Source of the DNA: Pyrodictiaceae archaeon
GTDB lineage: Archaea > Thermoproteota > Thermoprotei_A > Sulfolobales > WAQK01
Direction of reading: 5' to 3'
DNA: 53,614 nucleotides
Assembly (NCBI GenBank): GCA_015520265.1
Contig: WAQK01000037.1
Span: forward strand, 1-53,614
Each line of letters opens with the position of its first letter. The first letter of the stretch is position 1. Shown here piece by piece: positions 7,975 through 26,222 of the stretch. Below the pieces are notes generated by a model. That model worked only from the letters and a program-made list of their open reading frames with translations, was not told where the DNA came from and ran no database searches. Position numbers and translations under genes: made by a program.

Positions 7975-9075
7975 ATGGTGGATGCACTCTCACTACTAAT
8001 GGATCCGCTGTTCATAGACATAATGATAATATTTGGGATCTACCTCATTCTGTCGCTGAGCTTCAACATAGAGTATGGTTTCACAGGGATACCCAACCTA
8101 GGCAAGGTGCTTTTCTACGCGGTCGGCGCCTACGTTGCAGGGGGACTCGCAGGCTGGATCGCGTTAAGGCTGGCAGCCTTTACGCCCCAACAACATCTGG
8201 GGGGACCCCTCTACTGTGCCTATGGGGCCCCACAAACCATAACCGAGGTCTTCAAGACAAATCCGGCTTTCGCGTTAGGGGTGTTCCTACTAAGCATGGT
8301 AATTGGTGCCGCCTTCGGTGCAGTACTCGGAATTTTGGCCAGCTACCCTGCTCTCAGGCTGAGGGAAGACTTCCTTGCTATAACGCTGCTAGCTTTCTCG
8401 GAGATCGGAAGACTGATAACCAGGACTGAAGAATGGCCTGTTTGCGCCCACTATGGCATCCGCGGCCTATCTACACCCTTTGCCTGGCTGGGCGAGTACA
8501 GTTTAACCGTGTACATGTTCCTGGTGCTGGGTATAGCGGCACTCATGTACATGTTGGCCGAGAAGTTGGTTAACAGCCCATGGGGCAGAGCCCTTAAGGC
8601 TGTCAGAGACGACGAGCTGGCAGCCGAGGTTTACGGGAAGAATCCGGCTAGGGTGAGGGCTCAAGCCATGGCAGTGGGTTCTGCCATGGCTGCAGTAGCA
8701 GGGACTCTCTACGCTTTTTACCTAGGATCAGTAATGCCAGACGATTTTATGCCGATAGTCACGTTCTTGGCGATAGCTATGGTGATGCTGGGTGGCACTG
8801 CCAACAACAGGGGTGTCGTCGTGGGTGTAGCTGTGCTGGTCCTGGTTGACAGGCTGTTCAACGCCTCGGTGCTGGAGAGGAAGTTCGGCATTCCGCTGCC
8901 CGACTATCTCTCAAACTCGATAGCATACCTGAAATACGTGGTGATAGGCCTGGTCATAGTGCTGATCCTGATGTTCGGCCCCCAGGGCCTGATACCGGAG
9001 AAGCCGCTGAAGACGCCCATAGTGGAGGAGACCAAGAAGAAGCTGAAAGAATCGGTAGAGGGCGGAGAAGGCTAA
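7975..9075 (+). CDS. livM: Branched-chain amino-acid ABC transporter permease LivM
   Basis: Polytopic; LSLSFNIEYGFTGIPNLGKVLFYAVGAYVAG and VRDDELAAEVYGKNPARVR. Confidence 0.9.
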   Translation: MVDALSLLMDPLFIDIMIIFGIYLILSLSFNIEYGFTGIPNLGKVLFYAVGAYVAGGLAGWIALRLAAFTPQQHLGGPLYCAYGAPQTITEVFKTNPAFALGVFLLSMVIGAAFGAVLGILASYPALRLREDFLAITLLAFSEIGRLITRTEEWPVCAHYGIRGLSTPFAWLGEYSLTVYMFLVLGIAALMYMLAEKLVNSPWGRALKAVRDDELAAEVYGKNPARVRAQAMAVGSAMAAVAGTLYAFYLGSVMPDDFMPIVTFLAIAMVMLGGTANNRGVVVGVAVLVLVDRLFNASVLERKFGIPLPDYLSNSIAYLKYVVIGLVIVLILMFGPQGLIPEKPLKTPIVEETKKKLKESVEGGEG

Positions 9076-9076
9076 G

Positions 9077-9496
9077 CTAGGACCCTTTTTCCTCCACTCT
9101 AAGCTTCGAGACCCTCACATCTCTCCCGCTAACAATCTCCGTCTCAGACGAGCCGCAGCGCGGGCACCTGAAAAGCCGGGCGACAGCCTCGGGGTACATG
9201 TGGAGAGCTATTTTCGAGGCGTCGTCTAGCCCCTCGATTTCTCCTCTACTCAGCCCCCATTCGGCGCCGCACCTGGAGCATCTGAGCAGCGGCTCTACCG
9301 TCTTGAAGGTTATCCTGGCGCCCTCGAGGACTGTGTTCTTGGACATCACCTCGAGGGCGAAGCGGAGAGACTCAAGGTCAACTAGTGAGAGGAGCCCGAC
9401 CTCGACCTCTACTTCCAAGACACGGACGATGTCCTCACGTTTAACGGTGTCCTCGACTATGGCGATTATGCCTGCTGCTATGCTGGTCTCATGCAC
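9077..9496 (-). CDS. hypA: Hydrogenase nickel incorporation protein HypA
   Basis: VHETSIAAGI N-terminus (GTG start at 9496) and two zinc-binding CxxC pairs (CSRC, CPRC). Shorter than the 9589 ORF-track start, which lies upstream of the canonical N-terminus. Confidence 0.9.
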   Translation of the reverse strand: MHETSIAAGIIAIVEDTVKREDIVRVLEVEVEVGLLSLVDLESLRFALEVMSKNTVLEGARITFKTVEPLLRCSRCGAEWGLSRGEIEGLDDASKIALHMYPEAVARLFRCPRCGSSETEIVSGRDVRVSKLRVEEKGS

Positions 9497-9752
9497 CCTG
9501 ACCACCGGGTTCTCCGGGGTCCTCGGCCTTAAGCATCGAGATGATCTCGTTCCACGTCCTGATCGACTCGACAGCCTCCTCTGGATCAACCGTCGCTATG
9601 ATTGTGCCTGCATGGACCACCACGTAGTCGCCCACCTTTACCGGCGTGAAACTGGCGTCTACCTCCCTAAGCACGCCGCCTCCAAAGTCTACTACCGCTA
9701 TTCTGCCACCCTCCTTGAGTTCAACGACCTGTGCAGGGACTCCTAGGCACAT
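9489..9752 (-). CDS. hypC: Hydrogenase assembly chaperone HypC/HupF
   Basis: Canonical MCLGVPAQVVEL N-terminus; VGDYVVVHAGTIIATVDPEEA. Confidence 0.92.
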   Translation of the reverse strand: MCLGVPAQVVELKEGGRIAVVDFGGGVLREVDASFTPVKVGDYVVVHAGTIIATVDPEEAVESIRTWNEIISMLKAEDPGEPGGQGA

Positions 9753-9813: not shown

Positions 9814-10869
9814 TTAGCAGATACGGGGCACCAGCTCCCCGCTGGGAGGCTCCAGTATTCTGAGCCCCCCGGTACGGGTTCTGAGGAGGACGACGCCCCT
9901 GTGCTTCTCGCCCCTATACACCTCGCCTATGATCTCCGCCTCCTCGAATCCGAGGCTCCTAATATAGTCGAGCACCTCCTCAGCTGCCTCGGGAGCCACG
10001 CCGAGGAGCGCGACTCCCTCACTTGCGAGGCTTAAGGGGTCTATGCCCAGCATCTCTGAGTATGCCCTCACAGGTTCTCTTAGAGGGATCCGCTGCTCTT
10101 CGACCACTATTACGGTCCCGGACTTAGAGGCCCAGTCGTTGAGCGCCATGGCTAGTCCGCCACGCGTGGGGTCCTGGGCCGCGTGTATGTATTCCCTATA
10201 CCTCTCCACTAGGGGGAGCATAAGCCCGGTCAGGGTGCGGCAGTCGCTTCTCAGACCCTCGGCCTCCGCGCCTATGCCGTGCTGGAGGGCCATGATGGTG
10301 GCCCCGTGCTCCCCTACGGGCCCTGTTACTATAATCTTGTCGCCGGGCCTGAGCTCCACGTCCACTATGGGTTTCTCAGCCACACCCAGGGCGACAGTGG
10401 TTATCACTATCCTGTCCAGCTGCCCCTGAGGCATGACCTTGAGGTCGCCCCCGATCAGGGCTACACCCTCGCTGTGCAGCACCTTGATCATGGAGTCCAC
10501 TATCCTTTCGAGGTCCTCTATGGGGAATCCCTCCTCTACAACTATCGAATCCATAACGGCCAGCGGTTTGGCGCCCATCATGGCCACGTCGTTTATGGAG
10601 CCCGTGGCGGCGAGCTTGCCTATATCGCCTCCCGGAAAGAATATGGGATTAACTGTGTAGGAGTCTATGGATACCACAAGGTGCCGCCCGTCCGGTAGGG
10701 GTATGGTGGCGCCGTCGTCGAGCACATCTGTACCGTAGCCTCCCTTGAGCCTCATCATGTCTCTGGTCAGGCGAGACAGGAGGAGGTGCTGGAGGAGCTC
10801 CCCGGTCTCCCTTCCCCCGGCCCCATGGGCCAGGAGGACGTTTTTCCCGAGCTTGGGCTTCCAGGACAT
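9814..10869 (-). CDS. hypE: Hydrogenase expression/formation protein HypE
   Basis: LAHGAGGRETGELL...DDGATIPLP; C-terminal VPRIC, the conserved HypE tail Cys. Confidence 0.95.
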   Translation of the reverse strand: MSWKPKLGKNVLLAHGAGGRETGELLQHLLLSRLTRDMMRLKGGYGTDVLDDGATIPLPDGRHLVVSIDSYTVNPIFFPGGDIGKLAATGSINDVAMMGAKPLAVMDSIVVEEGFPIEDLERIVDSMIKVLHSEGVALIGGDLKVMPQGQLDRIVITTVALGVAEKPIVDVELRPGDKIIVTGPVGEHGATIMALQHGIGAEAEGLRSDCRTLTGLMLPLVERYREYIHAAQDPTRGGLAMALNDWASKSGTVIVVEEQRIPLREPVRAYSEMLGIDPLSLASEGVALLGVAPEAAEEVLDYIRSLGFEEAEIIGEVYRGEKHRGVVLLRTRTGGLRILEPPSGELVPRIC

Positions 10870-11547
10870 TCAACCACCCAGGAGGACATGGTATAGCTTG
10901 TCAACACCCTCGCCCGTACGTGCACTCGTCCTGACTATGGGTGCTCTAGGGTTAAGGCTCCGTGCATCTCGCTCCATCTTGTCCAGATCCACGTAGGCTG
11001 CGCTGGCTAGGTCCACCTTGTTGATCACTATGACGTCAGCCAGCCTGGTGGTTAGGGGGTGCTTCACGAACTTATCCTCGCCCTCAGCCACGCTGACTAC
11101 CAGCACCCTCCTATGGGCTCCTAAAGGGAAGTTTGCCGGACATATAAGGTTGCCCACGTTCTCTATGAACAACATTTTCAGTCTCCTCAGATCCAGCTTC
11201 TCCACAGCCTGGTAAATGTGGGGCACCTCGAGGTGACATATGTTCCCCGTGTTTATCTGCACGTGCTGTACACCGTGCTTGGAGACGCGCTCCGTGTCCA
11301 GACTTGTAGCCACGTCGCCGCCTATGTAGCCTATACTGCTGGCCTCGTACCCGTTGTTCAGCGCGATACCTATCAGGCGCTCTATTAGCGACGTCTTGCC
11401 CGAGCCGGGGCTTCCCATGAACTCGTATGCCCTGACCCCGTAGCTGTCCAGAAGCATTCTAAACTCGTCGGCCAAGCGCTTGTTGGCCTCATATACCGAC
11501 CTTCCGACATCTACTTCGACTACCCTTCGATCCAAGATCCGTCCCAT
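10870..11547 (-). CDS. hypB: Hydrogenase nickel incorporation GTPase HypB
   Basis: P-loop GSPGSGKTSLIE, IENVGNLICPANFPLG, VINKVDLA; no His-rich N-terminus. Confidence 0.93.
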   Translation of the reverse strand: MGRILDRRVVEVDVGRSVYEANKRLADEFRMLLDSYGVRAYEFMGSPGSGKTSLIERLIGIALNNGYEASSIGYIGGDVATSLDTERVSKHGVQHVQINTGNICHLEVPHIYQAVEKLDLRRLKMLFIENVGNLICPANFPLGAHRRVLVVSVAEGEDKFVKHPLTTRLADVIVINKVDLASAAYVDLDKMERDARSLNPRAPIVRTSARTGEGVDKLYHVLLGG

Positions 11548-12520: not shown

Positions 12521-13711
12521 GTGCCAGCCCTTGAACGCATAGCTAAGCTCTACCGTGGCGACGAGATGGCCAGGAAGGTGGTTGACGCCATTCACGCGGT
12601 TGCCCGTAGGATAGCTGAGAGGGAGGGCCGGGACTCCCTGGTTAAGATAATGGATTTCTGCGGTACTCATGAGTGGACCATCACGCACTTTGGCCTCAGA
12701 AGCCTGATGCCCAGTAACGTCGAGCTCGTGGCAGGGCCCGGGTGCCCGGTGTGCATAACACCGGCCTACTATGTCGACGTAGCCATACGCCTAGCCATGG
12801 ACGGCGTCAAGGTTTTCACCTACGGCGACGCCTACAGGCTGCCGGGCTCTGCGCGAAGGGGTGCCGGGATAAGGACGCTGGCAGAGGCCAAGGCGAGGGG
12901 CGGCGACGTCGAGGTGGTTTACAGCATGCTTGACGCGGTGAGGAGGGCCAGGGAGTCCGGCAAGGAATCCGTGTTCCTGGCAGTCGGGTTTGAAACCACT
13001 ACGCCCGCCACAGCGTCGCCGGTTGTTCAAGGCAAGATCCCGGTCAACATGACTATAATCAACGTGCATAGGCTGACGCCGCCCATAGCCAGATACGTGT
13101 TCGAAAACGTGCCTGGCATACCGCTTAGGGGGGTTATCGCGCCGGGCCACGTCTCCACAATCACGGGGGCCAAGGCCTGGCGGTTCATACCAGAAGAATA
13201 CGGGATTCCCACCGTAGTGGCTGGCTTCGAGCCCCTAGATGTGCTCCTAGCGATCCTCGAGATCTTGAAGCAGATCTTCGAGGGCAAGCCCAGACTTGTC
13301 AACGAATACACGAGAACCGTAACGTGGGACGGCAACCTCGGTGCCCAGCGCCTCATGGCCGAGTGCTGCGATGTAGTTGAGGCCGCGTGGAGGGGTATAG
13401 GCTTCGTACCCGACAGCGGGTTGGTCTTCAAGGACAAGTACCGTAGGGTTGATGCACTCAAACAGTACGGAATCCCTGAACTCACGCCTGAGGAGTGGAG
13501 CTACGACCTGCCGCCCGGCTGCAGGTGCGCCGACGTGACCCTGGGCAAGGCGAAACCTACCGACTGCCCCATGTTCATGAGGGCCTGCACGCCAGCCAAC
13601 CCTTATGGGCCCTGCATGGTCAGCATGGAGGGCACGTGCTCGGTATGGGCCAGGTTTGGCGGTGCGGGGCTGGCAGAGGAGATCGCCAGGGACATCGGGC
13701 TGGAGCCCTAG
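12521..13711 (+). CDS. hypD: Hydrogenase formation protein HypD
   Basis: IMDFCGTHEWTITHFGLRSLMP, GPGCPVCITP, FETTTPATA, Cys-rich C-terminus. Confidence 0.95.
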   Translation: MPALERIAKLYRGDEMARKVVDAIHAVARRIAEREGRDSLVKIMDFCGTHEWTITHFGLRSLMPSNVELVAGPGCPVCITPAYYVDVAIRLAMDGVKVFTYGDAYRLPGSARRGAGIRTLAEAKARGGDVEVVYSMLDAVRRARESGKESVFLAVGFETTTPATASPVVQGKIPVNMTIINVHRLTPPIARYVFENVPGIPLRGVIAPGHVSTITGAKAWRFIPEEYGIPTVVAGFEPLDVLLAILEILKQIFEGKPRLVNEYTRTVTWDGNLGAQRLMAECCDVVEAAWRGIGFVPDSGLVFKDKYRRVDALKQYGIPELTPEEWSYDLPPGCRCADVTLGKAKPTDCPMFMRACTPANPYGPCMVSMEGTCSVWARFGGAGLAEEIARDIGLEP

Positions 13712-14340
13712 CCCATTATTAGGCGTAGGGCTAGGGGCGAGTAGGTGAGGGTTTCCGTGATCCTGTTGGCCCACACGGGTTTTACACCCCCAACATCCAC
13801 CACGTAGTCGTCTGTGGGGTAGCAGTAGAGGAGTCTGACCTCCCCCTTAACCTTGCCCGGCCACTCGATGCCCGCCTCCTGGTATGCACGTCTCAGCAGG
13901 ACTTCGGGTTCGTAGCCTTCCGGAGCTTTGCTGGCCTCTTCCAGGTGCCCTTCGGCTGCTGACTGGATCCTCATTATCCACACGTCGGCCTCGGCTGCCG
14001 AGAGGAGTTCCGCCGTGGCTGAAAGGTAGCCTGGTAGACGCTCTATCCTGGGCTCAACTCTGCCATCTAGATGTACCAGTGCCACGTCGCCCCTGTCGGT
14101 GCCGAAGAGCGTCAGAGCTACCCAGTATCCTGGAGGGTCGCCGGATAGCCTGGCGGTGGCCCTTAGGATGCGTGCCTCCCCCCTGACGCGCACCAGGAGG
14201 GTCCTGCGGTCAAGAAGGCGAGGCTCCACAGGTATCCCGAACTTGGCCGCCTCCACCAGGGCCTCGTAGGCCAGTTCGCCTACGCTTCTCATCGTTGTTT
14301 TCTCCACCTCATCCACCAGGCGTCTCTCTATGTCGTCCAA
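13708..14340 (-). CDS. Conserved-looking protein of unknown function
   Basis: 210-aa ORF tail-to-tail with hypD (4-nt overlap); soluble, no recognised motif. Confidence 0.6.
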   Translation of the reverse strand: MDDIERRLVDEVEKTTMRSVGELAYEALVEAAKFGIPVEPRLLDRRTLLVRVRGEARILRATARLSGDPPGYWVALTLFGTDRGDVALVHLDGRVEPRIERLPGYLSATAELLSAAEADVWIMRIQSAAEGHLEEASKAPEGYEPEVLLRRAYQEAGIEWPGKVKGEVRLLYCYPTDDYVVDVGGVKPVWANRITETLTYSPLALRLIMG

Positions 14341-16858: not shown

Positions 16859-19174
16859 TTGCCGTCCCTGAGAATCACAGTTGTAGGCATAGTGCAGGGC
16901 GTGGGTTTCAGGCCCTTCGTCTACAGAGTCGCCGCTATGAGCGGTGTTAAGGGATATGTGAGGAACATGGGTGGAAGCGAGGTCGAAATCCGCGTTGAGG
17001 GGCCTAGGAGCAACGTGGCTAGGTTCCTGGAGCTCTTCTTCCTAGAGCTCCCCCCGCCAGCCAGGCTTGAGGAGGTCGAGGTCCAGGAGGAGAGGTTTCA
17101 GGGTTTTCGGAGGTTCGAGATACTGCCCAGCGCCAAGAGGTTGGGGAAAAGGTCGATGATCCCACCTGACATAGGTATATGTGACGGGTGCCTTAGAGAG
17201 GTCCTCGACCCCAGGTCCAGGTGGTACCGGTATCCCTTCAATAGTTGCGCATGGTGTGGCCCCCGGTTCTCCATGATGTACCGCGTCCCCTACGATAGGG
17301 AGAACACCTCGATGAACGACTTCCCACTATGCCCTCGCTGTAGAGCCGACTACGAGGACACCCGGAACGTTAGGAGGTTTCACGCGCAAGGCATAAGCTG
17401 CCCCGACTGTGGCCCCAAGGTATGGCTGGTGGATAAGCAGGGATCAAGTGTCGAGACTAAGGATCCCCTCAGAGAAGCGGCTAGACTCATAGATGAGGGA
17501 AACATTGTAGCCATCAAGGGTCTGGGCGGCTTCCACATAGCAGCGCTGGCCACCGACGACGAGGTGGTCGAAAGGCTTAGGAGGAGGAAGCAGAGGCCTG
17601 CCAAGCCTTTCGCGCTCATGGCCCTGAACACCGAGATCGTGGAGAAGCTAGCATACCTGCCCCCAGAGGCGCGGCGACTCCTGGAGTCACCTGAGAAACC
17701 CATAGTGCTACTGCCCTTGAGGGAGGGCTCGCCTGTATCCCCCCTCGTGGCTCCCGGCCTAGACACCGTGGGGATCATGCTTCCCTATACGGCCCTCCAC
17801 TACATGGTGCTCCAGGAGTCCAGGGACCGCTTCCTGATCATGACCAGCGGGAACAAGCACGGGAAGCCCATGTGCATAGACGAGGAGTGCGCCTTCCGCG
17901 AGCTAGCGGGCTTCGTGGATTATTTCCTGTTACATAATAGGAGGATTGTCAACCGGGTGGACGACAGTGTGGTCAGACTAACAGCAGGTCGCCCGACCTT
18001 CCTCAGGCGGAGCCGGGGGTATGCGCCAGTCTGGATCAGGGTGCCGCTAAGGTTCCACCACCCCATCATAGCCTTCGGCGCCGAGCTACAAACGGCTGGC
18101 GCGGTGGCCTTTGAGGACAAAGTAGTGCTTACACAGTACATAGGTGACGCCGACGACTACGATGTGCTAGAGGACCTTGACCGGTACTTAGAGTTCTTTG
18201 TGAAAACATACGGTATCAGGCCCTCCGACGCCATCCTAGTGGTGGACATGCATCCTGGCTACGCCTCCAGGAGACTGGGTGAAATATGGGCCGAGAAACA
18301 CGGGGCCAAGCTGGTGGAGATTCAGCATCACTACGCCCATGCAGCCTCAGTAATGGCAGACTATGGGCTGAAGCCCGGCGAGGAGGCTGTGGTTATAGCT
18401 ATAGACGGCATGGGGTACGGCGACGACAGCATGGTTTGGGGCGGGGAAGTGTTGGAGACCAGCTATACAGGCTACAGGAGGATAGGGCATCTAAAATACC
18501 AGGCCCAGCCGGGTGGGGACGCCGCCACCCGATACCCTGTGAGAATGCTGATAGGCATACTTTCCAGCTTCATGGAGGAGGACGAGGCCCTGAGTCTCCT
18601 CAGGTCGAGGCAGCTATTAAAAGGTCTGCGCTGGGGCGAGAAGGAGGCCAGGATAGCCTTTCTCCAGGCTTCGAGTGGAAGGGCTCCCCTAACCTCCAGC
18701 ACGGGCAGGATACTTGATGCAACAGCTGCACTGCTGGGAGTATGCTTGGAGAGGACCTACGAAGGCGAGCCAGCCATGAGGCTTGAGGCATTTGCCCGAG
18801 GAGGAAGGCTCATCGATAGCGTCGAGGCTCCGGTTAGGCAACATGGCGGCGTCTTCACAGTGGATACATCGAGGCTCTTCGAGACCGTCCTGGAGAACCT
18901 GGATGCCGATCCCCGTAGCCTGGCCTTCACGGTCCATTACAGGCTGGGCGAGGCTCTGGCAGAGATAGCGTATCGGTCTAGGAGCGTGAGGAGCGGGGGC
19001 ATAGTATATATGTCCGGCGGCGCGGCGGTCAACGACCATATAGTGGGCGCGGTCATCGAGTTTATGGCAAGCAAAGATGTGCAGGTTAAACTGCCTCGCC
19101 GGGTGCCTCCGGGCGACGGGGGGATCGCGCTGGGCCAAGCTGTCACTGCGGCTGCGAGGCTAGTCGAGAACTAG
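16859..19174 (+). CDS. hypF: Carbamoyltransferase HypF
   Basis: Acylphosphatase domain (VVGIVQGVGFRPFVYR), zinc-finger pairs (CDGCLREV, CAWCGP, CPRCRADY, CPDCGP), YrdC-like domain (KGLGGFHIA), C-terminal HHYAHAASVMADYGL. Confidence 0.95.
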   Translation: MPSLRITVVGIVQGVGFRPFVYRVAAMSGVKGYVRNMGGSEVEIRVEGPRSNVARFLELFFLELPPPARLEEVEVQEERFQGFRRFEILPSAKRLGKRSMIPPDIGICDGCLREVLDPRSRWYRYPFNSCAWCGPRFSMMYRVPYDRENTSMNDFPLCPRCRADYEDTRNVRRFHAQGISCPDCGPKVWLVDKQGSSVETKDPLREAARLIDEGNIVAIKGLGGFHIAALATDDEVVERLRRRKQRPAKPFALMALNTEIVEKLAYLPPEARRLLESPEKPIVLLPLREGSPVSPLVAPGLDTVGIMLPYTALHYMVLQESRDRFLIMTSGNKHGKPMCIDEECAFRELAGFVDYFLLHNRRIVNRVDDSVVRLTAGRPTFLRRSRGYAPVWIRVPLRFHHPIIAFGAELQTAGAVAFEDKVVLTQYIGDADDYDVLEDLDRYLEFFVKTYGIRPSDAILVVDMHPGYASRRLGEIWAEKHGAKLVEIQHHYAHAASVMADYGLKPGEEAVVIAIDGMGYGDDSMVWGGEVLETSYTGYRRIGHLKYQAQPGGDAATRYPVRMLIGILSSFMEEDEALSLLRSRQLLKGLRWGEKEARIAFLQASSGRAPLTSSTGRILDATAALLGVCLERTYEGEPAMRLEAFARGGRLIDSVEAPVRQHGGVFTVDTSRLFETVLENLDADPRSLAFTVHYRLGEALAEIAYRSRSVRSGGIVYMSGGAAVNDHIVGAVIEFMASKDVQVKLPRRVPPGDGGIALGQAVTAAARLVEN

Positions 19175-19714
19175 GGTGGATACGTTCATCATTTTCTCGA
19201 CCACGCACTCTTTAGGAATGGAGATGCTCCTAACACCCAGCCTGACTAGTAGCTTCTCCAGTCTTTCTAGAACCATGGGAGTAGCCCTTTTTACAGGGCC
19301 TGAGAGAGGTCTGCCGAACTCCGTGGTCTGAGGCACCACGCCCACGACGTATGCCTTCCCCCGGTACTGGCCGGTGGCGTAGAGTAGTGCCACAAGGTGG
19401 GCTGGCGAAACGGCGTGGTTGTCCGTCTCCCGAGAAAACATGTAGGCGTATTCCGCCGTATCGGCTCTAGAGGGGTCTATCTCCAGGACACCCACGTCTC
19501 CCGGCTTGTCTCCCACCAGCCCCGGCTCCACTACGTCGAGGAAGACGATCGCGTCATACCCGGCGAGGTACCCCAGCATGCCCAGGCCTAGATGCGAGCC
19601 TTGGAAAACGTCAAACCCGTATACCCCGCACTCCTCGAGGAACTGTGCTAGCAGGTCGCCGTAGCCGTCATCTCCGTACATCCTGTTGCCAAGGCCTACC
19701 ACTAGCACCCTCAA
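19160..19714 (-). CDS. Hydrogenase maturation endopeptidase (HycI/HyaD family)
   Basis: GLGNRMYGDDGYG N-terminal motif, FLDVVEPG, SRETDNHAVSPAHLVALLYATG: intact nickel-binding acidic and His positions of the M52 family. Confidence 0.88.
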   Translation of the reverse strand: MRVLVVGLGNRMYGDDGYGDLLAQFLEECGVYGFDVFQGSHLGLGMLGYLAGYDAIVFLDVVEPGLVGDKPGDVGVLEIDPSRADTAEYAYMFSRETDNHAVSPAHLVALLYATGQYRGKAYVVGVVPQTTEFGRPLSGPVKRATPMVLERLEKLLVRLGVRSISIPKECVVEKMMNVSTLVLD

Positions 19715-20442
19715 GGCTCCATTCCAGCCTCCCTTAGAACAGCCTCTTCAAGCCCCTCGCAGAGATTTTCGCCCGGCTCGCATTCAACAACTACTATTTC
19801 TCGCGGCCAGTGGGTTAGGAAGCTGGTAACACCATCTAAGAGTACGTCAACACTAACCCAGCCATCGAGGCTGGGCCTGATGTCCTCCAGGGCTTTGAAG
19901 GCGTTCTCCTTCTTTCTCAGACGTCTTCTGGAGACATGTATGCCCGGCGTCCTCCCCCGCCGCTCGGAGGTAACGATTACCAGCCTGGACGGCTTATGCT
20001 GGTTGATCAGATCGGCCACGGTGACCACATTGGTATGGAAGTCCTCTACAACTACGTTGCTGGGCAGCTCCATGGCTCTAAGCTTCTCATAAAGGTTGAG
20101 AACCTGTTGCCCAGCCTCGTCGAAGGGTGTAGCTATGAACCCTACCAGAACCTTTTCCCCGCCTCCTTGGGGCAGGCTTAAGCCTAGAACGGCGCCCAAA
20201 GCCTCTGCGAAGTCTCTTTTAGCCAGCTCCTCATCTCCTCCCAGCGCCTTTATGATCTGTGCCTTCATCGCCTCGGGGTCCTGGGGCTTCGCCTTGATCT
20301 CGTAGAGCACCTTCAGCAACGCCTTCTCGTCTACTCCGAGGATCTCCGCCAAGCTCCGCCTCACCTCCTGGTCCACTTCTTTGCCCAGCCTTGCCAGCAT
20401 TCCCAGAAGCCTTGCCAGCTCCGTGACGATGTCCTTGCCCAT
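19711..20442 (-). CDS. Diverged, probably non-catalytic hydrogenase maturation protease homologue with N-terminal helical extension
   Basis: KVLVGFIATPFDEAGQQVLNLYEKLRAMELPSNVVVEDFHTNVVTVADLINQHKPSRLVIVTSERRGRTPGIHVSRRRL aligns by eye with the M52 fold, but GxGNxxxxDDG is replaced; 4-nt overlap with 19160-19714. Confidence 0.65.
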   Translation of the reverse strand: MGKDIVTELARLLGMLARLGKEVDQEVRRSLAEILGVDEKALLKVLYEIKAKPQDPEAMKAQIIKALGGDEELAKRDFAEALGAVLGLSLPQGGGEKVLVGFIATPFDEAGQQVLNLYEKLRAMELPSNVVVEDFHTNVVTVADLINQHKPSRLVIVTSERRGRTPGIHVSRRRLRKKENAFKALEDIRPSLDGWVSVDVLLDGVTSFLTHWPREIVVVECEPGENLCEGLEEAVLREAGMEP

Positions 20443-20662: not shown

Positions 20663-22102
20663 TTGAGTTTCCTTAAGGAGCTCAAAATATCGAGGAGAGA
20701 CTTCCTGAAACTGAGCGGTAGCGCTGCCTTCTTCGCCTCCTTGGACTGGCGCAGCATCATCAAGACCGCCATGGCTCAGGTGCAGCAGGGCCTGATTAAC
20801 ATTGTTTGGTTCGAGGCTCAGGACTGCGCCGGCAACACGACTGCGCTGCTGGAGGCGACTGATCCCGATCTCCTCGACGTTCTGGGCGGCAAGTCGCACC
20901 TCGTGGGTCCCGGCGCCGTGAAGCTGCTGTTCCACGAGACCGTGATGGCTAGCTGGGGCACCGATACGCCGGCCTGGATAAAGGAGCTCCGAGACGATCC
21001 TGAGAAGCTTAAAGCCCTTCTGGAGAGCCTCGACCCGCAGGATCCCCTGAGAAGGACCCTGGAGGGCTACATGGCCCTAGGCTACAATCCTGGCCTGCTG
21101 CTCACCAGCCCCATCGATATCCTGAAACTGGCCGAGCAGGGCGCCCTCGACCCATTCGTACTGGTACTCGAGGGAAGTGTCCCGATAGACGAGAAGGCTG
21201 GAGGACCCCCCGGCTCCGACGAGTTCTGCTACATAGGGGAAGAGGGGGGCAAGGTCATATCGTGTGCTGAGTGGATGCGCCGCATCCTCCCCCGGGCAGC
21301 CGCCGTGGTCACAGTGGGCAACTGCGCCAGCTATGGCGGCCTAGTCTCCAACAAGGTGCTGGAAGCGCCAACAGAGGATGTTAAGAATATGGTAGAGGGT
21401 TGGTCAGCCAAGGGCTGGAGCCCCAGCCCCACCGGCGCCGTAGGGTTCTTCGACGACCCCATCAGAGGGTTCAAGGGACTAGTACACCTGCTCCCCGAGG
21501 CTGAGCCTTTCAGGAGGTTTGTTGACGGCGAGTGTGTACCAGAGAAGCCAGCTCAGGCCGACTGTAGGCCAGCTGTGGCCGTGCCAGGCTGCCCTGCCAA
21601 CGGCCAGGCCCAGCTGAGAACCCTTGCCAACCTGGTGCTCTGGGTCGCCGGGCTCATGCCTCTACCCGAGCTGGACGAGTACTGGAGACCCAAGTGGATA
21701 TACGGCAAGACAGTCCACGAGCAGTGCCCTAGAGGCGCCAACTACTCGGCTGGCGACTTCAGGAAGAACCCAGGGGACCCCGATTACCGGTGCCTCTTCG
21801 CCGTGGGCTGTAAGGGGCCCATATCTAACTGCCCGTGGAACAAGGTCGGATGGATCAACGGGGTCGGAGGACCGACCAGGACTGGCGGAGTCTGCATAGG
21901 ATGCACCATGCCCGGCTTCACTGACGCCTATGAGGCGTTCTACGAGCCGCTCTCAGCTGTAGAGTCGCCGACCGGCAGGGTCGCCGCAGCCAGCCTGGTG
22001 GGTGCTGGCATAGTTGGAGCGGCGGCCGCCTACGGGCTCGCCAAGCTACACGAGAAGAAGGTGAAGGAGGCCGAATCCAAGCTTGAGGAGGAGAAAGCTT
22101 AG
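20663..22102 (+). CDS. [NiFe]-hydrogenase small subunit (Tat-exported, C-terminal anchor)
   Basis: RRDFLKLSG Tat motif; FEAQDCAGNTTALL proximal-cluster motif; GNCASYGG; VPGCPANGQ; C-terminal hydrophobic segment AAASLVGAGIVGAAAAYGLA. Confidence 0.95.
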   Translation: MSFLKELKISRRDFLKLSGSAAFFASLDWRSIIKTAMAQVQQGLINIVWFEAQDCAGNTTALLEATDPDLLDVLGGKSHLVGPGAVKLLFHETVMASWGTDTPAWIKELRDDPEKLKALLESLDPQDPLRRTLEGYMALGYNPGLLLTSPIDILKLAEQGALDPFVLVLEGSVPIDEKAGGPPGSDEFCYIGEEGGKVISCAEWMRRILPRAAAVVTVGNCASYGGLVSNKVLEAPTEDVKNMVEGWSAKGWSPSPTGAVGFFDDPIRGFKGLVHLLPEAEPFRRFVDGECVPEKPAQADCRPAVAVPGCPANGQAQLRTLANLVLWVAGLMPLPELDEYWRPKWIYGKTVHEQCPRGANYSAGDFRKNPGDPDYRCLFAVGCKGPISNCPWNKVGWINGVGGPTRTGGVCIGCTMPGFTDAYEAFYEPLSAVESPTGRVAAASLVGAGIVGAAAAYGLAKLHEKKVKEAESKLEEEKA

Positions 22103-22115
22103 GAGGTGAGCATGC

Positions 22116-23993
22116 ATGCCCAAGGAGATGCTCCTAGACCCCGTAACAAGGATTGAAGGCCACTTAGGAGTAAGGGTGATCGTTAACGAGGACGGGACTA
22201 TAGACAGGGATAGTGTCAGAGTATTCGTCACCATGTTCAGGGGCTTCGAGGTGTTTCTCCGCGGCAGACGCCCGGAGGACGCCATTCACATAACCTCCAG
22301 GATCTGCGGCGTCTGTGGAGCAGCCCACGCCAATGCATCCATAATTGCCAACGACATGGCCCTAGGCGTACTACCCACAGAACTCGGCGTGGCCCTCAGG
22401 AACATGGCCCACGCCATGACCGACCATATATACGACCACCCCATGATCCTCAGCATGTTGGAGGGCCCCGACTTCAGCGCAGCCATAGTCGGCACCCTGA
22501 CGCCAAAGGTGTGGGCAGCAGCCAAGGAGACCACAGCTGAGCACAAGGACAGGCACGGCTTCCCCACCATTGCCGACATAATGGAGGCCCTTAACCCCAT
22601 ATCGGGCAAGGTATGGCAGATGGCCATCAAGTATCAGAGGATCGCCAGGGAGGCCGGCGTCCTGCTCTACGGCAGGCACAGCCACCCCTCCACGCTGATA
22701 CCTGGAGGCATCACAACGGACCTCACCAACCTGGAGCACCTGCTGATAGGCTACACCTTCAGGCTGGTTAAACTAACAGCGTGGGCCAAGTTCATCTACT
22801 ACCTGTGGTACGACCTGGTCAACTTCATGAAGGAGAACGGATGCCTCGACGCCCCCGAGGGGGCTGGCTGCGACTACAGGGAGCAGGGCAAGACAGAGCT
22901 CAGCCCCGGCTCCGGAGAGTTCCCGGTCCTAGCCTCTTCAGGAATCTTCGAGGACCCGGAGGCCTATGCCAACATGGGCAGCTCGCCCGAGGAGATCTAC
23001 TCCAACATCGACGAAGCTGCCAGCAAGAGGTTCCTGAAACTCGGGATAATCAAACAGGGCGCCAAGCCAGCCGAGGTCGTGACCAGGAAGTACACCGAGT
23101 ACAACGTCAGCCTCATGGAGACCGTGGACCACGCCTTCTATGAGGAGTGGAACAGCAAATTCACCGACACCGACTACCTCGGCAACCCGCTGCTATGGGG
23201 CAAGGAGGACGTCAAGTGGCACCCCTGGAACAAGACCACCATACCCAAGCCCGGAGCCAAGGACTGGGCCGACAGGTACAGCTGGGCAGCCGTCGTGAGG
23301 TTCGTGTGGAAGGACGGGTCTAAGTACCCGGTGGAGGTCGGCCCCATAGCCAGGCTAGTATCCCAGGCATGGTACGACCAGACAGAGCCCTACAAGAGCG
23401 GCGGAGGCAGAATAGAGGTCACCCTGCCAAGGGCTGTTGACGACACGCTGCCTCCAGGAGTATGGGAGGAGGACACCCTGGTTTACGAGGCACCCGCTTA
23501 CTCGACGACGCTGGAGAGGCTCTGGGCCAGGGCCTTCAACGTGGCCCTCGACGTGGCGGCTGCGTGGCATAACGTGGTCTACGCCATCAGCTACGTGAAG
23601 TCCGGCAAGCCGATAAAGACCTCCCGGTGGGACAGGAGCCATCCTAGCAGAATGACGTTCGGCGTAGGATTCAACGAGGCGCCCAGAGGCACCGTGAGGC
23701 ACTGGCTGGTGCAGAAGGGCGGCAAGATACTGAACTACCAGATACACGCATCGACCACCAGCAATGTCCCGCCCCTAGGCAGGGACGGCAAGCCAGCACC
23801 CTTCGAGGCCAGCGTGAGGAACACCGTGGTCTCGGAGAACGCCGGACTGGGCCTCGAGGGATGGACTGGCCTGGACTTCATGAGGGCCATAAGGAGCTTC
23901 GACCCGTGCCTGGCGTGCGCCGTCCACATCCAGTTCGGCAGGGAGCCAGTGAAGGTGGTGAAGAAGCTGATAAGCCCCACCTGCGGGCTCTAG
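22116..23993 (+). CDS. [NiFe]-hydrogenase large subunit
   Basis: DPVTRIEGHLGV, RICGVCGAAHA and C-terminal DPCLACAVH followed by 21 residues (IQFGREPVKVVKKLISPTCGL) expected to be cleaved. Confidence 0.97.
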   Translation: MPKEMLLDPVTRIEGHLGVRVIVNEDGTIDRDSVRVFVTMFRGFEVFLRGRRPEDAIHITSRICGVCGAAHANASIIANDMALGVLPTELGVALRNMAHAMTDHIYDHPMILSMLEGPDFSAAIVGTLTPKVWAAAKETTAEHKDRHGFPTIADIMEALNPISGKVWQMAIKYQRIAREAGVLLYGRHSHPSTLIPGGITTDLTNLEHLLIGYTFRLVKLTAWAKFIYYLWYDLVNFMKENGCLDAPEGAGCDYREQGKTELSPGSGEFPVLASSGIFEDPEAYANMGSSPEEIYSNIDEAASKRFLKLGIIKQGAKPAEVVTRKYTEYNVSLMETVDHAFYEEWNSKFTDTDYLGNPLLWGKEDVKWHPWNKTTIPKPGAKDWADRYSWAAVVRFVWKDGSKYPVEVGPIARLVSQAWYDQTEPYKSGGGRIEVTLPRAVDDTLPPGVWEEDTLVYEAPAYSTTLERLWARAFNVALDVAAAWHNVVYAISYVKSGKPIKTSRWDRSHPSRMTFGVGFNEAPRGTVRHWLVQKGGKILNYQIHASTTSNVPPLGRDGKPAPFEASVRNTVVSENAGLGLEGWTGLDFMRAIRSFDPCLACAVHIQFGREPVKVVKKLISPTCGL

Positions 23994-24034
23994 TCTTTCC
24001 ACCATCTCAACAACCCTCTGCGGGGTGATGCGTC

Positions 24035-24823
24035 ATGGTAGGCCTTGGACCCGACCTGTACGTGTTCGCCAAGGAGACGATGTTCCAAGTGGCCCTAGTG
24101 GTCTTCGTGTTCGGCGTAGTCTACCGCCTCTTCCGCTTCCTAGTGTTCTGGAGGAAGGTGGTTAAGGCAGAAGCCAGGAGCAGAGGCGCTGGCAAGAGGA
24201 TCGCCGGCTTCTTCAAGACCTTCCTTGACCCCATTATAGAGGCGTTCAAAAACCAGCCCCTCGAAGGACTAGTGGGACTGCTGGCGCTGCACCTTATAGG
24301 GCTAATACCGCTAATCTTTCTAATGGACCAGCATATCGAGTCGTTTAACGAGATACTCCCAAAAATAGGCGGCCTCAGCTACGGCGTTCTAGCGCCACTC
24401 AGCGTGCCTCTAGGCCTCACGGAGGCTGTAACAGCGGTCCAGCAAGGCTTAACCATAACATCTTCCTGGGGGCCGCTCATAATAGTCCTCAATGGCGACG
24501 TGCTTGCCACGCTGGCACTAATAGCCATAGGCTACAAGATCGGCGTGAAGCTGATGGAAAGGGGGCGTGGAATACAGCATATCAGGATAGGCGACTTCCT
24601 GGCTCTGATACTGCTGGCGGGCATAATATTGTTCGGCTTCATAGCGGCCCACCACCTGTGGAGCGGCTCAGGCTACTGGACGGCCCTCGGCATTCACATC
24701 CTCCTAGCGGAGATCCTGCTGATGGCGCTACCCTTCACCAAGTTCTGGCACTTCGTCTTCGGCTACTGGTACGGCAAGCTCCATGAGTGGTACGACCTGA
24801 GGGTGACCAAGGGTGCCACGTGA
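24035..24823 (+). CDS. Hydrogenase-associated integral membrane (cytochrome b-like, Isp1-type) subunit
   Basis: Several TM segments, conserved-looking His in membrane spans (FIAAHHLWSG, LGIHILLAE), located between large subunit and HdrD-like subunit. Confidence 0.75.
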   Translation: MVGLGPDLYVFAKETMFQVALVVFVFGVVYRLFRFLVFWRKVVKAEARSRGAGKRIAGFFKTFLDPIIEAFKNQPLEGLVGLLALHLIGLIPLIFLMDQHIESFNEILPKIGGLSYGVLAPLSVPLGLTEAVTAVQQGLTITSSWGPLIIVLNGDVLATLALIAIGYKIGVKLMERGRGIQHIRIGDFLALILLAGIILFGFIAAHHLWSGSGYWTALGIHILLAEILLMALPFTKFWHFVFGYWYGKLHEWYDLRVTKGAT

Positions 24824-24833
24824 GGGGTGAGGG

Positions 24834-26222
24834 ATGGTGGAGGCGTTCAAGAAGATAATAGAGATGGTCGAGTGGGAGGCCTTCCACAAGGATAGGCTGG
24901 AGACAGGGATTAAGCGGATGATGAGCCGCGTCGACGTGGTGGCGCTACACTTCCTGGAAAACTGCGTCTCCTGCGCCCTCTGCAAGACAGCGTGCCCCTA
25001 CTACTATGTGGACGAGAAATACTCGCCAGTAAACAAAGCGGAGGAGGCCAGGAAGATTTACAGGAAAGAACTCACCTTTGCAGGCAAGATACTGGGACCC
25101 CTGGTACACGCCAGGAAGCCTGGCTCGGCGGAAGACTTGGACCGGATAGCCGAGTTTGCCTATGCCTGCACCAACTGCGGGGCCTGCTACACGACATGCC
25201 CCTTCGGCATAGATAGCGGCGTCCTGATCAACCATGTCCGCACAATGCTTACCACAACCGGCAGAGTACCCACCATACTCCAGGCCTTCGAGATGGCTGA
25301 GCTGACCGGCATGTACCTACAAGTGCCTGGCCTCATGCAGGCATGGGAAGAGACCATGAAGAAGGCCGCCGAAGCGATAGGTAGGGAGCTGCCATTCGAC
25401 AAGGAGGGCGCCGAGATAATGCTATTCCCGACACTGATCGACACACTCTTCACGCCGGGAGCAGTGATAGGCGCCATCAAGCTGCTCGACAAGATGGGTG
25501 CCGACTGGACCCTACCCAGCAAACCCCTCGGCGTAAGGCCGCCCATAGCAACGGTGATCGGCGACACTGAAGGAGTAAAGGCGCAACTAGGCAAGGTTCA
25601 CGAATACCTGGAAAAGATGAAGCCCAAGAAAGTGGTGCTGGTGGACGGCGGCTTCGTGTACCCCGCCATGAGGTGGAAAATGGCCACAGTGCTCGGCAAG
25701 AGGCCCGGCTACAAGGTGCTCCACTTGGTCGAACTGGTCTACGGGGCCCTCAGGGAGGGCAAGCTGAAACTAGCCACCACCGACGACAAGGTGACTTGGC
25801 ACAGCCCCTGCCAGCTGGGGAGGAGGGGCGGCGTCATACTGGAGCCCGAGGAGGTTATGAGGAGACTCAGCAACGGCTACAGGCCACTCCCCCACCACGG
25901 GCTACACACGTTCTGCTGCGGCGGAGGTGCTGGCATGGGCTGCATGACAAGGGATATGCACGAAATGATGGGCAAACTGCTTGGCGCCTCGCTCTACGAT
26001 CTCATGGGCGACAAGGAGAAGAGGTTCCTCGATGCCGCTGAGAGGAGATACAGGCTCTCCATAAAAAGGAAGATGGAGGACATAGAGCAGAGTGGCGCCG
26101 AAATAGTAGTTACAGCCTGCCCAGTATGCATACACACCATAGAGCTGGGAGCCCAGCTCTACGGCCCTAAGGTTAAGGTAGTGCATCTGGCCGAGTACCT
26201 CAGCGAGCACCTGGAAGGTTGA
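24834..26222 (+). CDS. HdrD-like (Isp2-type) iron-sulfur subunit
   Basis: Two [4Fe-4S] motifs CVSCALCKTACP and CTNCGACYTTCP; one clear CCG domain (HSPCQLG...TFCCGGGAGMG...TACPVC). Confidence 0.88.
   Translation: MVEAFKKIIEMVEWEAFHKDRLETGIKRMMSRVDVVALHFLENCVSCALCKTACPYYYVDEKYSPVNKAEEARKIYRKELTFAGKILGPLVHARKPGSAEDLDRIAEFAYACTNCGACYTTCPFGIDSGVLINHVRTMLTTTGRVPTILQAFEMAELTGMYLQVPGLMQAWEETMKKAAEAIGRELPFDKEGAEIMLFPTLIDTLFTPGAVIGAIKLLDKMGADWTLPSKPLGVRPPIATVIGDTEGVKAQLGKVHEYLEKMKPKKVVLVDGGFVYPAMRWKMATVLGKRPGYKVLHLVELVYGALREGKLKLATTDDKVTWHSPCQLGRRGGVILEPEEVMRRLSNGYRPLPHHGLHTFCCGGGAGMGCMTRDMHEMMGKLLGASLYDLMGDKEKRFLDAAERRYRLSIKRKMEDIEQSGAEIVVTACPVCIHTIELGAQLYGPKVKVVHLAEYLSEHLEG

Follow-up and report, generated by a model that had tools for sequence, protein, structure and literature searches.

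A HypY–HypZ fusion with an M52-like fold as a candidate assembly factor of Isp-type group-1 [NiFe]-hydrogenases in Thermoproteota

The stretch of DNA analysed here (53,614 nucleotides in full, hereafter the window) encodes a 243-residue protein at 19711–20442 on the minus strand, and we read this protein as a fusion of HypY and HypZ. With a probability of roughly 0.55, we favour the view that both are accessory factors for the Isp-type, group-1 membrane [NiFe]-hydrogenases found in Thermoproteota, and that HypZ and HypY together may serve as a non-cutting, M52-shaped chaperone of the large-subunit precursor. HypZ is probably an assembly helper because it recurs with this kind of hydrogenase in relatives.

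Archaeal group-1 hydrogenases power the hydrogen–sulfur autotrophy of hyperthermophiles, and their assembly is understood mostly by analogy with bacteria. The analysis adds four points: HypZ proteins form a catalytically dead M52 family, they are strictly linked to group-1 hydrogenases in Thermoproteota, they pair with HypY, and the two can occur fused. A literature search confined to papers available without subscription found none that states these points. Two genes listed as “unknown” thereby become testable assembly factors, and the annotation of HypZ as a second protease is corrected. HypYZ may also account for the lack of bacterial-type HybE/HyaE helpers, and it may aid heterologous production of heat-stable hydrogenases.

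The locus in the window

The fusion gene has an ATG start and an intact frame. It shares 4 nt with the gene for an active-type, HoxM/HycI-like M52 maturation protease (19160–19714, minus strand, TTG start), and a 220-base gap separates it from a hydrogenase operon which runs in the opposite direction (20663–26222, plus strand). The earlier note had described this ORF, its overlap and its divergence from the operon, and the gene coordinates agree. The operon encodes a group-1 [NiFe]-hydrogenase small subunit with a Tat-type N-terminus (20663–22102), the large subunit (22116–23993), a TmcC/Isp1-like membrane subunit (24035–24823) and a DsrK/HmcF/Isp2-like FeS subunit (24834–26222), all on the plus strand.

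The neighbouring protease scores 80 bits against TIGR00072 and retains the full set of nickel ligands (D16, D60 and H100), so the earlier note was right to call it intact. Its likely substrate is the 21-residue tail which follows the CxxCxxH motif (DPCLACAVH) at the C-terminus of the large subunit. A single [NiFe] large subunit is encoded in the draft genome, and a single protease exceeds the TIGR00072 cut-off; the neighbour is therefore the sole evident candidate for cutting the large subunit.

Further maturation genes are found in the window: HypF (16859–19174, plus strand), HypB (10870–11547, minus), HypA (9077–9589, minus) and HypC (about 9490–9752, minus), along with a probable HypE (9814–10869, minus) and a probable HypD (12521–13711, plus), these last two assigned by sequence recognition and conserved clustering. 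A 210-residue protein belonging to no Pfam family is encoded at 13708–14340 (minus). Its relatives, at 26–30% identity, adjoin the large-subunit gene elsewhere (L022 2031–2582, L023 5665–6264 and L025 2012–2554), and it is possibly another hydrogenase accessory gene.

We considered whether the fusion gene might be a chance ORF or a decaying pseudogene. This is ruled out by the intact frame, the conserved family motifs and a copy in a sister genome which is 74% identical and sits in an unchanged gene order.

An M52 fold and its altered active site

The HypZ domain comprises residues 93–243 of the fusion (19714–20166, minus strand). Searching with the window protein alone against Pfam, NCBIfam and PDB sequences gave only noise and no family, so these libraries on their own would miss HypZ. 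The full protein did not match TIGR00072 or PF01750, and HypZ relatives reach at most 35 bits against TIGR00072, below its cut-off of 47. A profile comparison between HypZ and active proteases was likewise weak when small profiles were used (Prob 30), but became strong once 49 HypZ sequences were compared with 43 active proteases (Prob 98.4, E 3.8e-14, 151 columns).

Structure prediction points the same way. In AlphaFold2 models built from a five-sequence input, the C-domain core of the window protein was good (blocks mostly 80–93) and its N-terminus poor, and the model's eight best PDB matches were M52 proteases throughout, with moderate TM scores (0.48–0.56 by target). For a Pyrobaculum HypZ, the model (pLDDT 88) matched E. 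coli HybD (1cfz, E 7e-10) and T. kodakarensis HybD (5ija, TM 0.73). The best structural matches are HybD, HycI and HoxM proteases (1cfz, 5ija, 5zby, 2e85), with which HypZ has its fold and its strand/helix order in common. The earlier note had read an M52 pattern in the C-terminal residues and proposed a comparison with M52 structures as a check; both the profile E-value and the models, whose first matches are HybD/HycI, support that reading.

HypZ differs from these proteases in the residues which bind nickel and carry out catalysis. At the column of HybD D62, all 43 active proteases have Asp and none of the 49 HypZ sequences does (they have Gly, Ala or Thr; T158 in the window protein). At the column of HybD H93, His is present in 43/43 active proteases and in 0/49 HypZ (Gly in 42 and Ala in 7; G194 in the window protein). 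Loss at the column of HybD E16, the acidic ligand of the GNxxxxDDG signature, is nearly complete, with one Asp among 49 HypZ (otherwise 19 G, 10 Y, 8 C, 6 S, 2 M, 2 L and 1 H; G111 in the window protein). Asp is, however, common in the HypZ column preceding E16, and the window protein has an acidic pair, D108/E109, two to three residues away from G111, so the loss of this ligand is less certain in the window protein. The earlier note's claim that the signature is gone therefore stands family-wide for the Asp and His positions and is weaker for the E16 position.

Some motifs are specific to HypZ, namely RRGRxPG, a Gly at the former His position, and ECEP with a further Cys after it. In ECEP…C, 43/49 HypZ have the Glu and Cys and 36/49 the second Cys; the motif is absent from Sulfolobaceae group-1g HypZ (L085–L087) and from L083/L084. 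Judged from its residues, this pattern is that of a conserved non-enzyme rather than of decay. The L083 and L084 proteins (7978–8589 and 8375–8968, respectively) are HypZ-like and about 200 residues long; their genes directly follow the large-subunit gene of another hydrogenase clade, and an active protease lies about 1 kb off.

Distribution, the HypY domain and existing names

A single-protein search of genome contigs with the window protein found no match. Six-frame searches found relatives in 14/98 related genomes, most of them matching residues ~93–243 and one matching the N-terminus only. Using a 14-row C-domain profile, we found HypZ in 39/398 Thermoproteota genomes, with carriers including Pyrobaculum, Thermoproteus, Thermoproteaceae and Caldivirga. 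The group-1 small subunit (PF14720) occurs in 51/398 of these genomes: in all 39 which have HypZ, while HypZ occurs in 0/347 genomes without PF14720. The co-occurrence is strong by genome (Fisher p 9e-44) and by genus (16/16, p 3e-16), though both tests ignore shared ancestry. A phylogenetic profile had been suggested as a check on the proposed tie to hydrogenase maturation, and it upholds that tie.

Of the twelve genomes which have PF14720 but lack HypZ, one owes its PF14720 to a match under the family cut-off, another is a Thermoproteaceae draft in fragments, and the rest mostly belong to other families; when PF14720-positive, HypZ-negative genomes were searched again, only proteases of the active kind were found. 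HypZ-like matches at L099–L102 (L101 has a closely similar arrangement) were rejected as M52 proteases, as they retain the DDG/DEG, Asp and His motifs. From the co-occurrence with PF14720, HypZ therefore marks the crenarchaeal hydrogenases of Isp type together with their relatives and is not a marker of [NiFe]-hydrogenases generally. At the level of gene order, hypZ abuts or overlaps the protease gene in 24/49 cases and is within 8 kb of a small- or large-subunit gene in 42/49; in some loci, e.g. L018 and L019, it is remote from hydrogenase genes.

Residues 1–92 of the fusion (20167–20442, minus strand) form the HypY-like domain and are predicted, with modest confidence, to be helical. In families f7 and f8 they match separate 68–151-residue genes which lie immediately upstream of hypZ (E 1e-14 to 1e-44, although several of these rows also built the profile). 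The Sulfolobaceae hypY is collinear but only weakly similar to the window domain (E about 1e-3 in a small set). Since the N-terminal domain has homologues encoded by a small gene of their own, it is not lineage-specific padding. The earlier note was thus correct that a helical N-terminus of about 90 residues is fused here, but it is not a mere extra: it is HypY, normally encoded by its own gene.

Outside Thermoproteaceae, the gene before hypZ is usually hypY, and Thermoproteaceae loci yielded no clear hypY next to hypZ. The two are separate, adjacent genes in many relatives and are fused in the window's genus and in one other family (f35), whose fused N-terminus is remotely similar (Prob 80, E 1.5e-5). 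The fused forms fall in one clade (support 98/95), which also contains a long-branch row, so a single fusion event is the simpler reading and independent fusions in f1 and f35 are disfavoured. When adjacent genes fuse naturally, this is commonly taken as evidence that their products act as a physical or functional pair, and HypY is likely a partner of HypZ.

The protein had been put forward as an undescribed component, and this claim falls because the genes already have names. The original paper on the A. ambivalens hydrogenase cluster is that of Laska et al. 2003. A table of that cluster lists hypE, hypY (70 aa), hypZ (143 aa) and hoxM (163 aa, the HynL maturation protease), with hypY and hypZ entered as “unknown” (PMC5461723). 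In the Sulfolobaceae loci L085–L087 the order is hypE, a 71–74-residue gene, a 144-residue gene and a protease of 158–159 residues. This order and these lengths are like those of the HypZ of A. ambivalens and A. copahuensis (CAC86894, 143 aa; EZQ01603), for which the order is hypE–hypY–hypZ–hoxM. Compared with the HypZ profile, the 144-residue genes score E 6e-11 to 3e-9.

In the T. tenax paper one gene carries the label hypZ, and TTX_0029 is given as one of two maturation proteases (hybD/hoxM); from the paper's text and legend together, we read these as the same gene. Its cluster layout is that of the T. tenax-like locus L088, and the hypZ genes of L085–L087 and L088 fall into one profile family with the window domain. 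From the A. ambivalens table, the L085–L087 order and the L088 layout, we therefore identify the window gene as a HypY–HypZ fusion, a correspondence drawn from order, length and homologous loci: hypY–hypZ before the maturation protease of an Isp-type cluster is retained, with the first two fused. The window HypZ differs from that of L085–L087 in sitting behind HypY in one protein and in having the ECEP…C motif. A. ambivalens HypY (CAC86893, 70 aa) is likewise small, helical and encoded directly before hypZ, and a LYEIK-type core is common to both; the window domain is, however, longer (~92 aa) and fused, and its similarity to the Sulfolobaceae form is weak.

Proposed role, rival explanations and other cluster genes

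The earlier note had suggested a non-catalytic chaperone or a partner which binds the large subunit, and such a role is plausible. The mechanism we favour begins with docking. HypZ would retain the M52 surface which docks on the large-subunit precursor and, with HypY, would keep that precursor competent for folding and cofactor insertion (a holdase or checkpoint), blocking premature processing or Tat export. The adjacent active protease would then cut off the 15–34-residue C-terminal tail. There is a precedent for binding of this kind: the M52 proteases HydD and HyaD form stable complexes with the HydB large subunit which depend on cofactor synthesis and form even when the extension stays uncut (PMC5299533). 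Conservation and gene order tie HypZ to the hydrogenase, not to a given client, and simple docking does not explain ECEP…C, the strongest HypZ-only motif.

A broader proposal is more tentative, and we put it at somewhat under an even chance: HypYZ may be an obligatory maturation module of crenarchaeal Isp-type hydrogenases, in which a duplicated M52 protease, no longer catalytic, came to act as chaperone of the large subunit alongside a small helical partner and fills in archaea the place of the HybE/HyaE-type chaperones of bacteria. The bacterial maturation chaperones HybE, HyaE/HupG and HyaF/HupH are non-catalytic accessory factors of group-1 hydrogenases, and possibly do the same job as HypZ. 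Their folds differ from that of HypZ. The near-complete lack of HybE and HyaE in the HypZ-positive genomes tested (figures below) speaks for the favoured mechanism as well.

As a rival explanation, HypZ could mainly partner the active protease in an inactive/active M52 heterodimer, positioning or restraining it. The frequent adjacency or overlap of the two genes and the paralogy of the two folds fit this, but we consider it unlikely: in clusters of the Thermoproteaceae and Caldivirga type 2–6 kb separate the two genes and hydrogenase genes occupy or flank this interval, the L018 neighbourhood lacks a protease, and M52 proteases elsewhere are generally known to act without such a partner. It is also doubtful, and rather improbable, that HypYZ is a small-subunit or Tat-proofreading factor replacing bacterial HyaE/HybE. 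HypZ is found only in genomes with a group-1 small subunit and frequently near its gene, and in the 12 HypZ-positive genomes tested HybE was missing from 12/12 and HyaE from 11/12, the single HyaE match being barely over the cut-off. The M52 fold, however, indicates the large subunit, HyaE is thioredoxin-like, and a thioredoxin-like protein is also present in some HypZ-positive clusters (trxA/hyn1 in T. tenax).

The frequency of ECEP…C raises a different idea, that HypZ handles a metal or ligand (Ni, Fe or a redox step) for cofactor insertion. The motif's absence from Sulfolobaceae group-1g HypZ and from L083/L084, together with the presence of HypA, HypB and HypC in the window, makes this a poor prospect. 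It is scarcely credible that HypZ remains a protease whose active site has been rearranged: this would accord with the T. tenax annotation and with D108/E109 in the window protein, but not one HypZ has the D62-position Asp or the H93-position His, and in most cases a complete active protease lies beside or near HypZ.

Several clusters hold further points of interest. HypZ-like genes at L018 8524–9170 and L026 7848–8366 have no protease or hydrogenase gene nearby, and the L026 gene, which sits on a very long tree branch, may have another role. The L028, L059 and L060 clusters have the small subunit, membrane and FeS subunits, hypY, hypZ and protease; no large subunit was detected in the ~17 kb read, and it probably lies elsewhere. 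Between the small subunit and hypY, some loci encode a conserved protein of 130–144 residues (…AAALTGVAERRM…AALFLAQVGSS…) with no convincing Pfam match (L022 7704–8096, L023 11350–11748, L025 7699–8094 and L024 1684–2118).

In Thermoproteaceae, a protein of ~205 residues overlaps the end of hypZ and precedes the small subunit (L095 5551–6177 and L096 10449–11060). With its helix-turn-helix-like N-terminus and Cys-rich C-terminus, it is a candidate hydrogenase regulator and probably corresponds to the T. tenax gene which bears the label lrp. In Thermoproteus sp. CP80 (L097 5956–7014), the hypZ frame continues into the regulator frame, which is probably a frameshift or an assembly error.
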